Part shown: positions 10,157-40,021 of the stretch, in pieces
Position numbering within the stretch: position 1 is the stretch's first letter
Layout: every line of letters starts with the position of its first letter
Assembly: GCA_947452005.1 (NCBI GenBank)
Contig: CANGBC010000002.1
Coordinates: 1-64,000 of the forward strand
Direction: 5' to 3'
DNA length: 64,000 nt
Source: Beijerinckiaceae bacterium
GTDB taxonomy: Bacteria > Pseudomonadota > Alphaproteobacteria > Rhizobiales > Beijerinckiaceae
Made by a program: the position numbers and the translations under genes
The notes under the pieces: model-generated
The model's input: only the letters and a program-made list of their open reading frames with translations
What the model was told of the DNA's origin: nothing
The model's database searches: none

Positions 10157-12150
<1,994 letters not shown>

Positions 12151-32078: not shown

Positions 32079-34208
32079 ATGAACAGGCTTCTGGACCAGA
32101 ACGATCTGCAGACGAAGTCCGCGCACAAGATGCCATCGCCGCCTCTTCGGCGTGCGCTGCTGCAGAGCGCCTTGATCGGCGCTTTGTTGGGGCTTGTGGC
32201 GCCCATGCAGGGAACGCCTTGGTTTGCGACCCCCCTTATCATCATCGCCTGTATCAGCGTGACCTTGGCGATCTATAAGGCCGGCGCTCGAACGCAGTCC
32301 ATCATTCACTTCATGTCTGATTTGCCCAAAGCGACGCGATTTCTGCTCGTCGCCTTTTTTGTGACATCCATCTTTGCGCTGGAATTGCGCTTTGATTTTG
32401 TGCCCAACAAATATGGCTTTCTGGAATTGCTGATCCCCGTTGCGTTTTTCGCCGTGTTCTTCAACGTCACAGGCGGATTGTTTTGCGCAGCCTTGACCAT
32501 TGCTTATGCCTTTCAGGCCTTGGCCCCGCCACGTTTCGCGCCTGTTCTGGAACCCGCCGTGTCTCATACGGGCGCGCTGCTGGCCTTCACCGGGGCAGCC
32601 ATCGCCAGCGCCGTGTTTTTTGCCCAGCAAGCACAGCATCTGCGCCAGCAGGCGCGAAGTGAACTTGACGCTCTGACCCAATCGCTGCGCTCAGCCAGTC
32701 AGCTTGTGCAGGGTGAAGCCGCACATTTCGCCCTGCGCTTCAAAACCCTCATTCTGCCTGCTTGTGCGATCATTCTGATCTACACATTCGTTTGGGCAAG
32801 CTTTGCGACGCTGTCGACCGGCGGCGGGCTACATGGCGACTCGCTGGAAGCATACGCTTGGGGCCGCGAATTCAGCTTTGGCTATTACAAGCATCCTCCC
32901 TTCTGGTCTTGGGTGGCGGGTGCCTGGTTTGCCGTTTTTCCAAAAACGAATTTTTCCTTCTGGTTCTTGAGTGAACTGAATGGCGCCATAGGCCTTGCTG
33001 GTGCCTGGGCCTTGATCGGACGATTTGCCAATCGGCGCATGCAGGTGCTGGGTGTGCTGCTGCTCATGCTGACGCCCTTCTACCAGTTCAATGCACAGCG
33101 CTTTAATGCCAATACAATCTTGCTCTCGATCTGGCCGTGGACGCTCTATTTCTTCGTGCGCTCGCTGGAGATGCGCCGCGTCTCGCACGCACTGATCTGC
33201 GGCGTGCTCGCGGGCATGGCCCTGCTGTCCAAATATTATGGCGCTATTCTGGTTGCGACCTGCTTTTTTGGCGCTCTCGCACATCCCTCGCGCAAAGACT
33301 ATTTCCGGTCCGCCGCACCTTACGTCTCGACAGCGGCCGCTTTCTTGATGTTTCTGCCGCATCTGCTCTGGCTTGTGAGGGATGGCTTTCAACCGCTCTT
33401 TTATCTGGCCGACCGCATCGACAAAGCAGACCGCGCCATCGCCAACCAATATTTTCAATTCATCCTCGGCAATGCTGGATTTTTCATTCTGCCTGCAGCT
33501 GTTCTGGCTTTGGCAAGATGGCGCGGTGGCGCCGCATCCACGCGGCCCCAGATCAGCAAGGTGCATGGCGCATCCTTTCTGCAAGTGCTCGCTTTCGCGC
33601 CCTTCGTTTTGACGCTCGTTGCAGGGACGGTCGGCCATACAGCGCTCGGCATTCCTTTTGCCGTGGCCATCTTGTCCCTCGTGCCGCCCTTGCTGGTGGT
33701 CTGGATCAATCCCTCACTTGATCTCGCATCACGCTATGCGCGCCGGACAGCTGGCGGCATTTTAGTTGCCTGTGCGCTGGCGGCGCCAGTTTTGCCATGG
33801 CTCTACCTGCGCTTTGATCAAAAGCAATATTCGCTGCCGCGCGATGAGGCGGCAGATTTTGGCATTGCGCTTTGGAAACAAGAGACCGGCCTGCCCCTGC
33901 GCACCGTCTCGGGCGAGCGCGATTTTGCCACCGCGACGACGTTCCGCTCGCGCGATAAGGTATCGGAATTCAACGCTTTCAACTTCCGTTGGTCACCCTG
34001 GGTGACAAAGCAAAGCCTGCACGATGGCGGCCTGCTCGCCATCTGCCGCTCGGCAGATGAAAATTGTAATGACAAAGCAAAGCTCTATACCGGCGCTGGC
34101 GCTAAGGTGGTGGAACAGTCGCTGCAACGCCAGATCTGGACGGCAACAGGTCTGCCGTTGAACATGACATTCTACATTATTCCGCCCGGTGCGATTTCTA
34201 ACAAGTGA
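32079..34208 (+). CDS. GT39-type glycosyltransferase with KdpD-like N-terminal membrane domain
   Basis: A 709-residue membrane protein. Residues about 220-709 are an ArnT/PMT-like GT-C glycosyltransferase: a first loop with HGDSLEAYAWG (Asp254, Glu257) and YYKHPPFWSW, then about ten helices. These enzymes move sugars from polyprenyl phosphate to lipid or protein on the outer face of the inner membrane. The first 182 residues are extra: about six hydrophobic segments ending in FFNVTGGLFCAALTIAYAFQ, then a charged coiled coil (about 183-215, AQQAQHLRQQARSELDALTQ). That pattern recalls the DUF4118 membrane module of KdpD-like kinases. The reading frame is continuous, so this is a real fusion. 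Confidence 0.8.
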   Translation: MNRLLDQNDLQTKSAHKMPSPPLRRALLQSALIGALLGLVAPMQGTPWFATPLIIIACISVTLAIYKAGARTQSIIHFMSDLPKATRFLLVAFFVTSIFALELRFDFVPNKYGFLELLIPVAFFAVFFNVTGGLFCAALTIAYAFQALAPPRFAPVLEPAVSHTGALLAFTGAAIASAVFFAQQAQHLRQQARSELDALTQSLRSASQLVQGEAAHFALRFKTLILPACAIILIYTFVWASFATLSTGGGLHGDSLEAYAWGREFSFGYYKHPPFWSWVAGAWFAVFPKTNFSFWFLSELNGAIGLAGAWALIGRFANRRMQVLGVLLLMLTPFYQFNAQRFNANTILLSIWPWTLYFFVRSLEMRRVSHALICGVLAGMALLSKYYGAILVATCFFGALAHPSRKDYFRSAAPYVSTAAAFLMFLPHLLWLVRDGFQPLFYLADRIDKADRAIANQYFQFILGNAGFFILPAAVLALARWRGGAASTRPQISKVHGASFLQVLAFAPFVLTLVAGTVGHTALGIPFAVAILSLVPPLLVVWINPSLDLASRYARRTAGGILVACALAAPVLPWLYLRFDQKQYSLPRDEAADFGIALWKQETGLPLRTVSGERDFATATTFRSRDKVSEFNAFNFRWSPWVTKQSLHDGGLLAICRSADENCNDKAKLYTGAGAKVVEQSLQRQIWTATGLPLNMTFYIIPPGAISNK

Positions 34209-34296: not shown

Positions 34297-35229
34297 ATGC
34301 GCATTCTTTTTATAGGCAACACCCGTATTGGCGACTTCATTCTCAGCAGCGGGTTGATTGCCCATTTGCTTGAAGCCTATCCCAATGCGCGCCTGACCAT
34401 TGCCTGTGGTTATACATGCGAGCCGCTGACGCGACATATTCCGCGCGTTGAGCGCGTGATCGCGATGCGCAAGACATCCTTCAATCGACATTGGCTAAAA
34501 CTCTGGCAGCAAGTCTGCGGCACGCATTGGGATCTGGTCATCGACCTGCGCAACAGCGCGGTCTCGCGCCTCGTGCGTAAAAACAAAGTCTATCGTCTCG
34601 TTCGCCCGATCGGCCTGCACAAGGTTGAAGAAGCCGCGCGCGTCTTGGGCCTCCGCCCTGCGCCCAACCCAAAAATCTGGATCGGTGAAGAGCACCGCGC
34701 CTATGCGCGCATGTTGATCCCGGATGGAATGGAAGTGATTGGCATTGGATCTGGCGCCAGCCATTTGTTCAAGCGCTGGCCCCCTGAGAATTTCGCTGAA
34801 CTCTGCACGCGCTTGATCGCGTCGGACGGGCTCTATCCAAATGCCAAGATCGCGGTCCTCGGCTCTCCCGATGAACGGGCTTTGGCGCAACCGATTTTTG
34901 ATCACTTGGCGCAAGACCAGGTTCTGGATCTGATGAAACGTGCCGATCTGCTGCAAGCTGCGGCCATTCTGGAACGCTGCGCGCTCTATATCGGCAATGA
35001 CAATGGACAGATGCATCTGTCGGCCGCGATGGGCGCAAAAACCATCGGGCTGTTTGGGCCTACGCCAACAGCGCTTTATCGGCTATGGGGCGAGAATTGC
35101 GGATTTGTATGCTCGCAGGTGCCGCAAGCCGAGCTGGCCGCGATTGAGAAGAAATTGGGACGGGATGCGCAGTGCTTGATGGAGGGCGTGGACGTCCGCC
35201 AAGCCCTGGCTGCCATCCGCACGCCTTAA
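34297..35229 (+). CDS. Glycosyltransferase family 9 (heptosyltransferase-like)
   Basis: A 310-residue GT-B enzyme. The N-terminus MRILFIGNTRIGDFILSSGL and the C-terminal donor-site block CALYIGNDNGQMHLSAAMGAKTIGLFGPTPT are the GT9 hallmarks; GIGSGASHLFKRWPPENFA lies between them. Relatives add heptose or other sugars to the lipopolysaccharide core. The local genes point to surface glycan work, but the sugar is unknown. It converges with the UDP-glucuronate decarboxylase gene, 20 bases apart, and no terminator is visible between them. Confidence 0.88.
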   Translation: MRILFIGNTRIGDFILSSGLIAHLLEAYPNARLTIACGYTCEPLTRHIPRVERVIAMRKTSFNRHWLKLWQQVCGTHWDLVIDLRNSAVSRLVRKNKVYRLVRPIGLHKVEEAARVLGLRPAPNPKIWIGEEHRAYARMLIPDGMEVIGIGSGASHLFKRWPPENFAELCTRLIASDGLYPNAKIAVLGSPDERALAQPIFDHLAQDQVLDLMKRADLLQAAAILERCALYIGNDNGQMHLSAAMGAKTIGLFGPTPTALYRLWGENCGFVCSQVPQAELAAIEKKLGRDAQCLMEGVDVRQALAAIRTP

Positions 35230-35249: not shown

Positions 35250-36221
35250 TCACGCAAGACTTCGAAAATAGTCGATTGTCTTTTCCAGCCCCTGCTCCAG
35301 CTGAATGCGAGGCTGCCAATCAAGAAGCGACTGCGCCATTGAAATGTCGGGACGTCTCTGAGCTGGATCATCTCCGGGCAAAGGAAGAAAAACCAATTGC
35401 GAGCGCGAGCCTGTCATTTTGATGACCGTCTCTGCCAATTGAAGCATGGTGAACTCACCCGGATTTCCCAGATTCACCGGACCCGTTACATCATCACCGG
35501 TCTTCATCAAACGAACGAAGGCCTCAATCAAATCATCGACATAGCAAAAAGAGCGCGTCTGAGCGCCTGTTCCGTAAATCGTGATGGGCGCATCTTGAAG
35601 CGCTTGAATGATAAAATTTGATACGACGCGCCCATCATTGGGATGCATGCGCGGACCATACGTATTGAAGATCCGCGGCACCTTAATGCGCAAATTGTGC
35701 TGCCGATGATAATCAAAGAAAAGCGTTTCTGCGCAGCGCTTTCCCTCATCATAGCAAGAGCGGATCCCAATCGGATTCACCCGCCCCCAATAGGACTCGG
35801 GTTGAGGATGGACCTCGGGATCGCCATAAACTTCGCTTGTTGACGCCTGAAGAATCTTGGCTCCAACCCGCTTGGCCAGCCCGAGCATATTGATGGCGCC
35901 ATGAACACTTGTTTTCGTCGTCTGCACGGGATCGCGCTGGTAATGTACGGGCGATGCCGGGCAAGCCAAATTGTAGATCTCGTCGACCTCAATATACAGT
36001 GGGAAGGTCACATCATGACGGATGAGCTCAAATCTTGGATTTGAGAGCAGATGAACAATGTTCTCGCGCGTGCTGCTGTAAAAATTATCGACGCACACCA
36101 CCTCTGCGCCCTCTGCGAGCAAACGCTCACACAGATGCGAACCGAGAAAGCCGGCTCCGCCCGTCACAAGGACGCGCTTTCGATTTGCTACGCGAGACGT
36201 CACAGCACTCATCCTATTCAC
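35250..36221 (-). CDS. UDP-glucuronate decarboxylase (UDP-xylose synthase)
   Basis: A 323-residue extended SDR that makes UDP-xylose from UDP-glucuronate. It has the cofactor loop [14 protein letters not shown], the family-specific [20 protein letters not shown], the [16 protein letters not shown] segment with the catalytic Ser/Thr, CYDEGKR with the Tyr-X3-Lys pair, and [20 protein letters not shown]. These blocks are much closer to UXS than to UDP-glucose 4-epimerases. The frame starts with GTG at 36221; an ATG at 36212 is an alternative. The product could supply xylose to the neighbouring glycosyltransferases. Confidence 0.9.
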
Positions 36222-36247: not shown

Positions 36248-38128
36248 TTACTGAGCATTAGCCTGATATTTTGTCAGGCGATGACCCAGCTGATCAGCAT
36301 CATCTTTGCCAACCAGAACAATGTTGCGGTTTTTCTGCGTCTGCGATTTCAAAGCGATATCGGCGTTTGATGTCGAATAGCCGTCAATTTCTTCGAAATC
36401 CATATGTCCTTTCATGCGGGCGGGGGCGCCACAACCAGGACAGAATTTCGCGACCTGCTTGGCAAACACGTCCATACGCGCCTTCCACCAGCCATTCGTG
36501 ACGGGAAGTCCGTGATCTTCGTTACGCGCCAGATCAAATGATGCGGCAACCTCGCAAAAATACGCCCGCAACTTGCCCTTGTTTTGAATGATCGCAGCCG
36601 ACCAGTTTTTGTTCACGTCACAATTGGAGATTTTTGTCCACATGGTCGGCGGGTCGAACAGATCTTTGCCTGCAACCAGCAATGGGGCATGCTCTGAGGA
36701 GGTGTCATAATAGCCGCCGTTAAACTTGCCGCTTCCCACCATACGATCATAAATTGGTTTCACTGACTTGATGCCGCGCTCAACCCCGTGCGGGTTCAGG
36801 TTAAAGGCACCAAATTTTTGCTCCAACAGATCAGCATGTTTGAAAGCATTATTGGTCCAGATGCCACGCTTGTGGCGATCGGGAATCTCTTCTTCAAAAA
36901 TACGGCTGATTTCTTCAAAGCGCGAATGCATGCAGGGGTTGCCACCAATCACGGCAATCACGCCCGGAAAGTCTGCCAAGGAACGGGCTGCAAGCCGGAA
37001 ATTCTCCGGTGTCATCTCCCAGAAGTAATCCTGGTTTTTCAGCAAGCGCGTGCAATTCGAGCAGGACAGATCGCATTTGTTGGTAATATCAATGCAAATG
37101 ATGCCCATTTCGGAGGGTGAACGCATCCGTGGAATCGCCCAGTGTGCCGATGCTTCGCCAGCTTTTTCGCTGAGCACATCATCGATCATGCTCAAGACAT
37201 TCTCGCGCGAAAAAAGGTCCTGATCGCGCAGAATAGCGTCCTGATAAGCGGCAATTTTTTCGATATTGACTGATGCAAGATGCTCGGGCAGTCGCGCCAG
37301 CTCACGTTCAGGCACGCGCAGAACATATTTGTCCCATGCAATCCGGTCGCCAAATGGCAGGACATAATCGTCCGCCATAATCACGGGAATCGAACCTGCA
37401 TTCAGAGCTTCAATCCAGCGGAATGACCACTGGCCATAGCCTGCCGGGCAGAGTGTGAAAATCGAGCGTTGCATCAATTCGCGGCTGGAAAGGCCCGCAA
37501 TCGCGCCCTGCTCATGGGGCGCGTAAATATGAATGCCTTCGCTCTTCAGCAGATCCTTATGCGAGAGAAGCTGCTCGCCTCTGATATGCGTGGCCGCAAG
37601 CTCGGAATAGCCAAGAGCGCCTTTAAAAGAGCACAAAAGATCGCGCGGCTGATCGGATGCTTTCGCAGGCATCGGCTCGACCATATAAGGGAGAAAGCCC
37701 AGATCCTGATCATGCAAATCCGCTGTCGATTCCAGAGCGAGAAGCGAAAAGCGATCATCCAGCCAACGATATTTATTGACGTTGGCGCGCGTCGGATGTC
37801 CCTGCATTTCTGACTTGGACTGGTAACGCTGCCCAAAATCACCGGTGCCAATCAGCAAATGACGTCCGCGCGACAGATATTTGCAATAGTGCGAAATGAT
37901 TTTGTGGTTCTCAGGATCCATGTTTTCGAACTGCCAGCCAGCCAGAAACAACGGGACGCAGAAATAATCAGCATCATCCGGATTGTCCGTCGAATGCATT
38001 GCCATGCGCTCCAGAATGTCGATGAAATACTGGAATTGCTGGTTCAGCTTATGTTTTTGAACCACCTGCGAATTAAACGATGCGATCTGCTCGTCAGCCA
38101 TCAGGTCAGAATAGAAGTAGATTTTCAT
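36248..38128 (-). CDS. Exostosin-like glycosyltransferase fused to a radical SAM domain
   Basis: A 626-residue protein with two unrelated domains in one open frame. Residues 1-about 320 resemble exostosin (GT47): [15 protein letters not shown] near residue 55, and the donor-site core [20 protein letters not shown] with [15 protein letters not shown] (222-259). Residues about 340-570 are radical SAM-like. [14 protein letters not shown] gives CX3CX2C at Cys352, Cys356 and Cys359, GGNP (395-398) stands where the SAM-binding GGEP motif lies, and Cys503, Cys525, Cys563 and Cys566 could hold an auxiliary cluster. No signal peptide is seen. The ATG at 38128 follows GGGTGG. The gene is richer in A+T than most of the window. 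I infer a glycosyl transfer coupled to radical modification; the substrate is unknown. Confidence 0.82.
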
Positions 38129-38352: not shown

Positions 38353-39093
38353 ATGACTGGAAGAATGACAACGGTCTTTTGCGCGGTCTGGAGCAAGGAC
38401 CCCAATCGTCATGCGCTGATCAAGCAGCACCAATCGAATCTGCTCGCGCAAACCAAACCAGTCGACATTGTTTACGTGTTCGATGATGGCGATCTGCCTC
38501 CTGAAGGGCTTGTGGCGCGCACGATCAGCGTCGGCTCGCCCTTGGGCATTTATGAAGCCTGGAACGTCGCCCTTTCGATGTGCCGGACAGAATTCGTGAT
38601 GAACCTGAACCTGGATGACAGGCTTGCGCCAGACGCCGTTGAGCGTCTCGAACATGAGATGCTAGCCAGCAAGGGCAATCTCATTGGCGGCGACTGGAAT
38701 ATTTGCTTCTCTCAAGAAGAGACGGATGCCGTCAGGCCGGTCCATCTGGCGACAGATATTCCATTTCTTCCCTATTGGCCGCCCAAACCATTCGCGCCCA
38801 CGCGTCTTGGCAGCGGAACAGGCGAACGCGGCACCTATGGGCCAGCGACCATGTGGCGACTAGATTGTCACATCGCACACCCGCGCTATCCCTATCGCAC
38901 GGTCAACAACACGCCCATCAAAAGCGTTGCAGACGCCGTTTGGTGGGGCATGCTGGTTCAGCATAACGCCGAACGCGTGCTGCGTTACCCGGCCATCATT
39001 GGAAATTATTACTCGCATCCTTCGGACCAAGCGGAATTCCGACTTGGTGATGAAACCAAACTGGTCTCGACGCAGCCCATCAGTCTCGTCTAA
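38353..39093 (+). CDS. Glycosyltransferase, GT-A (family 2-like)
   Basis: A 246-residue protein with a GT-A pattern: an N-terminal TTVFCAVWSKDPNRHALIKQ, VYVFDDGDLP, and the metal-binding acidic motif in VMNLNLDDRLAPDAVERLE. The C-terminal half (GTYGPATMWRLDCHIAHPRY) is unlike standard family 2 enzymes. It is divergent from the exostosin-radical SAM gene, with 224 bases between the starts that hold both promoters. It is followed 12 bases later by another glycosyltransferase-like gene, so the two form an operon. The donor sugar and acceptor are unknown. Confidence 0.75.
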   Translation: MTGRMTTVFCAVWSKDPNRHALIKQHQSNLLAQTKPVDIVYVFDDGDLPPEGLVARTISVGSPLGIYEAWNVALSMCRTEFVMNLNLDDRLAPDAVERLEHEMLASKGNLIGGDWNICFSQEETDAVRPVHLATDIPFLPYWPPKPFAPTRLGSGTGERGTYGPATMWRLDCHIAHPRYPYRTVNNTPIKSVADAVWWGMLVQHNAERVLRYPAIIGNYYSHPSDQAEFRLGDETKLVSTQPISLV

Positions 39094-39105: not shown

Positions 39106-39930
39106 ATGCTCGATATCAATGTTCTTTGTGTTGGCCTCATCCGAAATGGCGCTCGCACCATCCAGCAATCAGTCGAACACATTGAACAGGCCTTCTCCTT
39201 CACCAAAAGCAGAAGATGGCTCGTCATTGAATCTGACAGTGACGACGAGACGCTCAGCTCGCTCCAACATATGAATGAAGAGTTGCCAAACTTTTCATAT
39301 CTGTCGCTTGGTAAGCTTGCGGACCGCATGCCTGCACGCACGCAGCGGATTGCATTCTGTCGCAACAGATATCTTCAGGAGATCTTCGCAAACCCCGAAT
39401 ATGCGAACATTGATTATGTCGTGATGGCCGATCTGGATGGCGTGAATCAGGGGCTGGATTGGCGTGCTGCGCTATCATGCTGGACGCGGACAGACTGGGA
39501 TGCCTGCTTCGCCAATCAGACCGGCGCCTATTACGATATCTGGGCCCTGCGCCATCCGGCGTGGTCGGCCAACGATTGCTGGCAACAAGTCAATTTCTTG
39601 TCACAACAAGGTGTCTCGTCAGAATTTGCCGCGATCACCAGCATTGCCGCACGCATGATCGAAATCCCGCCGCAATCACCCTGGATCGCCGTGAACTCAG
39701 CCTTCGGTGGATTGGGCATCTACAAAAAAGCGATGCTTGAAGGGTTGAGCTTTCACGGGCTCAGCCCATCGGGAGACGCTGTTTGTGAATGGGTCGGCTT
39801 CAACGAGCAGCTGTGCGAAAAAGGCTACAAGCTTTTCATCAATCCGCAATTGGTGAATGGCGGCTTCAACGAGCATAGCCTGCCCTACAAGGGCATCCTC
39901 GAGCAGATGCGCGGCGCACGAAGCGTCTAA
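39106..39930 (+). CDS. Glycosyltransferase-like protein
   Basis: A 274-residue protein with features of GT-A enzymes: LNVLCVG-type start (MLDINVLCVGLIRNGARTIQ), RIAFCRNRYLQEIF, the acidic motif VVMADLDGVNQG, and GAYYDIWALRHPAWSAND. The FCRN and DXDG pattern recalls alpha-mannosyltransferases of the CMT1 kind, but the resemblance is weak and I do not assign a family. It is co-transcribed with the preceding gene and ends 15 bases before the tRNA-Glu gene, which is on the other strand. Confidence 0.68.
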   Translation: MLDINVLCVGLIRNGARTIQQSVEHIEQAFSFTKSRRWLVIESDSDDETLSSLQHMNEELPNFSYLSLGKLADRMPARTQRIAFCRNRYLQEIFANPEYANIDYVVMADLDGVNQGLDWRAALSCWTRTDWDACFANQTGAYYDIWALRHPAWSANDCWQQVNFLSQQGVSSEFAAITSIAARMIEIPPQSPWIAVNSAFGGLGIYKKAMLEGLSFHGLSPSGDAVCEWVGFNEQLCEKGYKLFINPQLVNGGFNEHSLPYKGILEQMRGARSV

Positions 39931-39945
39931 GCAAGGGAGATGAAT

Positions 39946-40021
39946 TGGCGCTCCCTAGGGGAATCGAACCCCTGTTTTCGCCGTGAGAGGGCGACGTCCT
40001 GGACCGCTAGACGAAGGGAGC
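39946..40021 (-). tRNA. tRNA-Glu (CTC)
   Basis: The reverse-strand cloverleaf begins GCTCCCTTCGTCTAGCGG. The acceptor pairs GCTCCCT with AGGGAGC, the discriminator is G, and CCA is encoded (39946-39948). The anticodon arm is TCGCC-CTCTCAC-GGCGA, so the anticodon is CTC. The T-arm has GGTTCGAATCC. Confidence 0.96.

Follow-up and report, generated by a model that had tools for sequence, protein, structure and literature searches.

The window analyzed here, a 64,000-nucleotide stretch of contig CANGBC010000002.1 from a Beijerinckiaceae bacterium (the assembly comprises 25 contigs and is 58% complete), harbors a gene for a protein in which an exostosin-type glycosyltransferase (GT) of family GT47 is fused to a radical S-adenosylmethionine (SAM) domain. 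The gene is an uninterrupted open reading frame (ORF) of 626 residues with an ATG start on the minus strand at 36248–38128; plus-strand frame 1 across the same positions contains several stops. An earlier note on this DNA had described the single 626-residue frame without giving its strand, and that description holds. Eleven contigs of uncultured viruses encode fusions with the same domain order (10 complete at 616–625 residues and one, L103, truncated by the contig end), which rules out an assembly chimera. The leading reading of the protein, with about an even chance of being right, is a bifunctional glycan-building enzyme that would oxidize the sugar it has just transferred.

Domain Architecture and Conserved Motifs

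The GT47 half spans residues 1–326 (37151–38128, minus strand, as for all features of the gene). Its Pfam match, Exostosin_GT47 (PF03016), covers residues 2–286 at 6e-30, with 105 bits against a gathering cutoff of 33.4, and the closest solved relative of the fusion protein by sequence is human exostosin-1 (2.1e-9). The radical SAM half spans residues 338–626 (36251–37117) and matches Radical_SAM (PF04055) at residues 348–421 with 1.4e-4 and 22.6 bits. The gathering cutoff of that family, 29.5, is a detection threshold and not a chemical feature, and relatives of the domain also fall below it (23.4 bits at locus L031 and 21.9 bits at L087). The separate family matches for the two halves that the earlier note had looked to are therefore found, the second of them below the cutoff.

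The radical SAM half carries the CX3CX2C cluster motif at Cys352, Cys356, and Cys359 (37052–37075) and a GGNP motif at residues 395–398 (36935–36946), where radical SAM enzymes usually have GGE; both lie where they had first been placed. Five cysteines follow GGNP (399, 503, 525, 563, and 566), and the stretch from Cys503 to Cys566 (36431–36622) harbors the four putative ligands for a single auxiliary cluster. Across 62 aligned homologous domains, the window's included, the three cluster cysteines, on whose conservation the original assignment depended, are invariant (62/62), as are GGNP and Cys503, Cys525, Cys563, and Cys566; this conservation rules out chance cysteines. Cys399 is kept in 53/62 domains and Cys345 in 51/62, and another column holds cysteine in 59/62 and serine in the window protein. 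L103 was too short (124 residues) and was thus left out of the alignment and the tree.

Predicted Structure and Similarity to Twitch Radical SAM Enzymes

Both halves adopt the expected fold in one full-length structure prediction, the GT47 half a GT-B fold like that of EXT1 and the radical SAM half the fold of solved radical SAM enzymes, which agrees with what had been anticipated for each. The best fold matches to residues 338–626 are SpeY and BtrN, at 11–19% identity. Both have sugar-like substrates and belong to antibiotic pathways; neither is a viral or surface-glycan enzyme, and we know of no GT attached to either. SpeY, from the spectinomycin pathway, is named a dehydrogenase in its PDB title, and its substrate is an already assembled sugar conjugate. 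BtrN is a butirosin pathway enzyme that performs a two-electron oxidation, and its auxiliary cluster has four cysteine ligands (PMC9012708).

The four later cysteines of the fusion protein fit one auxiliary cluster of this SpeY/BtrN twitch type, in line with the second cluster suggested for them in the earlier note; such a cluster has been shown for BtrN and would be present by analogy in the fusion protein. All seven cysteines needed for the radical SAM cluster and a four-cysteine auxiliary cluster are invariant. Unlike SpeY and BtrN, the fusion protein has GGNP in place of GGE, a substitution also seen in a solved 7-carboxy-7-deazaguanine synthase.

Gene Neighborhood in the Window

On the same strand, 26 bases behind the fusion gene, lies a gene for uridine diphosphate (UDP)-xylose synthase (UXS; UDP-glucuronate decarboxylase) at 35250–36221, and the two genes probably form one operon. 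The best solved relative of this UXS is human UXS1 (3e-124, with the next family at 2.7e-40), and it has no NCBIfam match above cutoff; the viral UXS of locus L036 compares similarly (UXS1 3.7e-110, next family 2.2e-37). The plus strand encodes a PMT-type membrane GT (32079–34208; Pfam PMT_2, 1.8e-28), a GT9 enzyme (34297–35229; Pfam 2e-26), a divergently placed GT2-type GT (38353–39093; Pfam 1.8e-4, 21.9 bits, just under the cutoff of 23.3), and a 274-residue protein (39106–39930) that is GT-like by eye only, without a Pfam or NCBIfam match. The neighborhood of GTs and a UDP-xylose synthase described previously is thus confirmed.

The fusion and UXS genes have the second and third lowest guanine-plus-cytosine (GC) content among the 43 ORFs selected as genes in the window, which hints at sideways gain. 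A prophage origin of the window copy finds no support in the gene neighborhood, where Pfam matches no phage family in 10 neighboring proteins (2 of the 10 have no match at all). A tRNA-Glu gene (39946–40021) marks the boundary of the low-GC stretch, with GC changing there from about 0.56 to 0.66. With regard to an island at this tRNA, no exact 13–24-base repeat of the tRNA region occurs elsewhere in the window, and none of the six integrase matches in the genome is on this contig. Further away, an Rfam thiamine pyrophosphate (TPP) riboswitch at 10164–10265 precedes a 610-residue ORF, for which thiC is a guess only.

Distribution and Partners of the Radical SAM Domain

Relatives of the radical SAM domain were sought in several collections with short search patterns, so that all counts are lower bounds, and the sets of patterns differed between collections. 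The window protein alone as a query (six patterns) finds no relative in a collection of 84,980 species genomes. Among 398 genomes of the phylum, its own included, there is one close relative, in genome G163, as well as three weak matches (3.4e-6 to 6.8e-4); at 1e-30, only G163 and the genome itself match among 385 genomes of the class. The G163 domain is 50% identical, and its frame continues into a GT2-looking domain; the same protein recurs as locus L018, where Pfam GT2 is matched. A two-row alignment query extends the set to 14 genome loci, including 13 close ones (51–67% identity), and 7 viral loci. One archaeal match (L019, 27%) was dropped before the alignments as a general radical SAM match. 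A 21-row query yields 164 viral matches; the best 80 of these, at 39–65% identity, were analyzed, and the remaining 84 may include other radical SAM families. No match to the domain occurs in 50,697 phage records, an argument against regarding the family as a general phage gene, or in 72,556 plasmid records; GT47 has weak partial matches in 4 of the same phage records. Bacteria therefore rarely encode the radical SAM domain, and it is well represented among contigs of uncultured viruses. Of note, L022–L026 form a distant viral branch of the family (28–35% identity), and methyltransferase genes lie beside the radical SAM genes of L022, L024, and L026, the three loci tested.

The viral-type set comprises 82 loci, namely 79 new best-scoring viral matches together with L016, L020, and L021. 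L090 is on the same contig as L021, L094 has a broken radical SAM frame and is counted, and the set is redundant, collapsing at 95% identity to 45 clusters, of which 10 have the GT47 fusion and 13 have UXS. The GT47 fusion accounts for 11/82 loci, and a C-terminal extension of 293 residues for two more (L087 and L089; Pfam GT2 was found in L087). A gene resembling the small GT2 of L016 directly adjoins in 49/82 by script (25 upstream, 24 downstream) and overlaps in prediction at a further four (L048 and L051–L053). Among the remaining 16, five are at or near a contig end (L068, L079, L084, L095, and L096), and three (L043, L045, and L047) have or should have a 245-residue neighbor, seen in L043 and L047 and matching Anp1 below cutoff in L043 (8.8e-5). 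The other eight (L097–L102, L104, and L105) are distant relatives; of the four whose neighbors were tested, L098 and L102 have Pfam GT2 close by, L101 has a methyltransferase nearby, and L104 shows no match in the two neighbors tested.

The 13 genome loci (L006–L018, with L016 also among the 82) show comparable partnerships. The domain is fused to GT2 in L008, L010, L013, L017, and L018 and to an FkbM-like domain in L011, L012, and L014, which form one clade; the FkbM-like matches are weak and below the NCBIfam cutoff (1.8e-6 in L011 and 1.9e-5 in L012). As an unfused gene, it stands beside GT2 (L006, L007, and L016), GT25 (L009), or GT61 (L015), and a GT25 gene also adjoins the fusion of L012. 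Overall, a GT is a fusion partner or neighbor in 11/13. L014, assigned to a Marinimicrobia bin, nests with L011 and L012 and may be misbinned. L016 is binned as Balneolaceae and has a UXS–GT2–radical SAM set with a weak terminase match right after it (7.2e-4, under cutoff); on this basis, the contig is probably phage. The radical SAM half is thus part of a wider family, found here mostly on uncultured virus contigs, whose other fusion partners are GT2 and FkbM-like domains.

In L010, L016, and L021, UXS is next to the radical SAM gene, as in the window, and it lies within 3.5 kilobases in 23/82 viral-type loci. This proximity would also suit an order of events in which the radical SAM half acts on a sugar nucleotide (e.g., UDP-xylose) before the GT moves the altered sugar. 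Such a scheme is compatible with the leading reading apart from the order of steps, which sequence cannot tell; the same domain is, however, joined to GT47, GT2, and FkbM-like partners, often without UXS in view, and we consider prior modification rather unlikely.

Viral Setting of the GT47 Fusion

Gene order is largely common to the 11 fusion contigs. A GT2-type gene (cluster c0; Pfam GT2 was tested on L031 only) lies one or two genes upstream of the fusion in 11/11, which bears out the expectation that the fusion would recur beside glycosyltransferase genes. Between the two stands a 182-residue gene in 6/11 (Pfam Methyltransf_24 in L031) or another 161-residue gene in 2/11 that is methyltransferase-like by eye. 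A 220-residue gene follows the fusion in 10/11, and 4-base overlaps between neighbors are frequent. Among the genes ahead in L031 are matches to a head scaffolding protein (1.3e-6) and a major head protein (5.6e-25). The L031 GT2 has a match to a PHROG beta-1,4-glycosyltransferase (1.2e-20), and the 220-residue gene and the two tested genes behind it have none. A tyrosine integrase is matched in 0/11 fusion records, which may be fragments.

The position of the fusion close behind a coat-protein gene in one virus suggests a chemically altered sugar coating of a kind not known before. In mycobacteriophages, capsid and tail tube proteins carry sugars added by phage-encoded glycosyltransferases; the available text of that work mentions no radical SAM step (PMC12363180). 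Alternatively, the viral module might alter a surface glycan of the host, for example to exclude other phages. This is the role proposed for pelagimyophage glycosyltransferases, and some host-recognition clusters of these phages hold radical SAM cassettes, although the available text draws no link between these and the transferases (PMC7029224). Bacterial copies, moreover, stand mostly beside ordinary glycosyltransferases. On the other hand, a GT2 and a methyltransferase gene separate the L031 fusion from the major head protein gene, a head-protein cluster (c4) lies upstream in 9/11 fusion contigs, and in L036 and L084, which lack the GT47 fusion, a large terminase match directly follows the radical SAM gene. 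Gene position by itself is no proof of a virion target, and a host-surface role is a credible if somewhat doubtful alternative. Glycosylation of viral DNA is far less probable: some phages do glycosylate their own DNA (PMC7029224), but a thymidylate synthase family match occurs in 0/11 of these possibly fragmentary records, and most bacterial copies are beside glycosyltransferases.

Evolutionary History

A 62-row tree recovers the nine viral fusion rows as a single clade (100/100) and places the window's radical SAM half with copies from Beijerinckia and Methylosinus (97/83). Forcing the window together with the GT47 fusions is not quite rejected (approximately unbiased (AU) test, p 0.0575), and a single origin of all GT47 fusions is neither shown nor rejected. 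The GT47 halves of the window and the viruses are 41–44% identical. A GT47 scan of viral contigs with two narrow patterns returns 11 loci, all the same fusions, and the GT47 half has one partial match besides its own genome among the 385 genomes of the class. Taken together, the grouping, the identities, and the scans point to either two separate fusions or a recombined window gene.

The window branch is long (0.67), and the tree program warned of long branches meeting. A long end branch would suit an incidental tether or an inactive radical SAM half; against this stand the invariant cluster ligands, the three types of partner, and a partner state that changes at least five times over the tree, which make such an explanation highly improbable.

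Proposed Function

In the leading reading, UXS would convert UDP-glucuronate to UDP-xylose, and the GT47 half would transfer the pentose (or a uronic acid) onto an acceptor. The radical SAM half would cleave SAM at the CX3CX2C cluster, and the 5′-deoxyadenosyl radical would abstract hydrogen from a carbinol carbon of the just-added sugar. The four-cysteine auxiliary cluster would accept the second electron to give a keto-sugar, as in BtrN, and the tether could allow the radical site to act on the transferase product. This proposal draws on sequence and model: GT47 and twitch radical SAM halves in one chain, invariant cluster ligands, and UXS alongside. UDP-glucuronate and UDP-xylose are likely donors because UXS adjoins and a UDP-glucose/guanosine diphosphate (GDP)-mannose dehydrogenase family gene is present elsewhere in the genome; GT47 enzymes using each of the two donors exist. 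It is the cysteine conservation, the similarity to BtrN and SpeY, and the probable donors that place oxidation of the transferred sugar first, and we infer donor, acceptor, and reaction alike. The suggestion of the earlier note, that the protein may add and alter a sugar in one glycan, remains the best reading, since the families match separately, the fusion recurs, both folds are predicted, and the cysteines are invariant; this support covers build and plausibility rather than proven function.

Several observations weigh against the leading reading. The Radical_SAM match is below its Pfam cutoff, identity to SpeY and BtrN is low, and in a profile search BtrN is matched at 1.8e-4 over positions 8–147 only and SpeY with an E of 1.6. 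At a predicted template modeling score (pTM) of 0.58, the arrangement of the two halves relative to each other is unsure. In the tree, the radical SAM half of the window gene falls with Beijerinckia instead of the viral fusions, and a UXS matching the window's occurs in 1/11 viral fusion records, at 28% and far off. Among the genome loci, L011 has no GT or glycan gene among its neighbors (read by eye), and L014 has about 390 bases upstream before the contig end and no GT downstream (by eye). Finally, a fold in common does not fix the reaction. Radical SAM epimerases use a hydrogen-donor cysteine, and one may be present here, candidates being the near-invariant extra column (59/62) and Cys345 (51/62). 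The same partnership could hence epimerize, dehydrate, or decarboxylate the sugar instead of oxidizing it, an outcome that we regard as unlikely given the BtrN-like set of conserved cysteines.

The viral counterpart of the module may attach such a keto-sugar to proteins of the virion. In this bacterium, the module lies among other glycosyltransferase genes on the chromosome, in a stretch that may have been acquired sideways. More broadly, it is tentatively hypothesized, as an unlikely but specific scenario, that uncultured viruses carry a transferase–radical SAM family near head and packaging genes that builds a radical-oxidized keto-sugar glycan on virion proteins, and that bacteria like the present one have taken up the module for their own glycans.

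Relation to Known Systems and Significance

Among the titles, abstract openings, and passages covered in an open-license library, outside which most subscription papers lie, no description of a GT47–radical SAM build was found. Exostosin GT47 proteins (human EXT1, EXT2, and EXTL3) differ from the fusion protein in its radical SAM domain; EXT proteins carry a second GT domain and no radical SAM domain. The UXS–GT2–radical SAM sets of uncultured viruses share a homologous radical SAM domain (approximately 50–60% identity) with UXS and a GT alongside, but their GT is a separate GT2-type gene, whereas that of the window is a fused GT47.

Radical SAM enzymes acting on sugars have been described in antibiotic pathways; in the proteins analyzed here, a domain of this kind is tied to GTs of different families. 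This physical tie, in viruses and bacteria, predicts a glycan with a sugar altered in place by radical chemistry. If true, the protein would be a single-chain enzyme that adds and then modifies a sugar in a glycan, and there would be reason to seek unusual virion sugars that routine glycan searches would miss. Should a virion keto-sugar be confirmed, it would represent both a new kind of glycan chemistry after transfer and a new class of virion modification.
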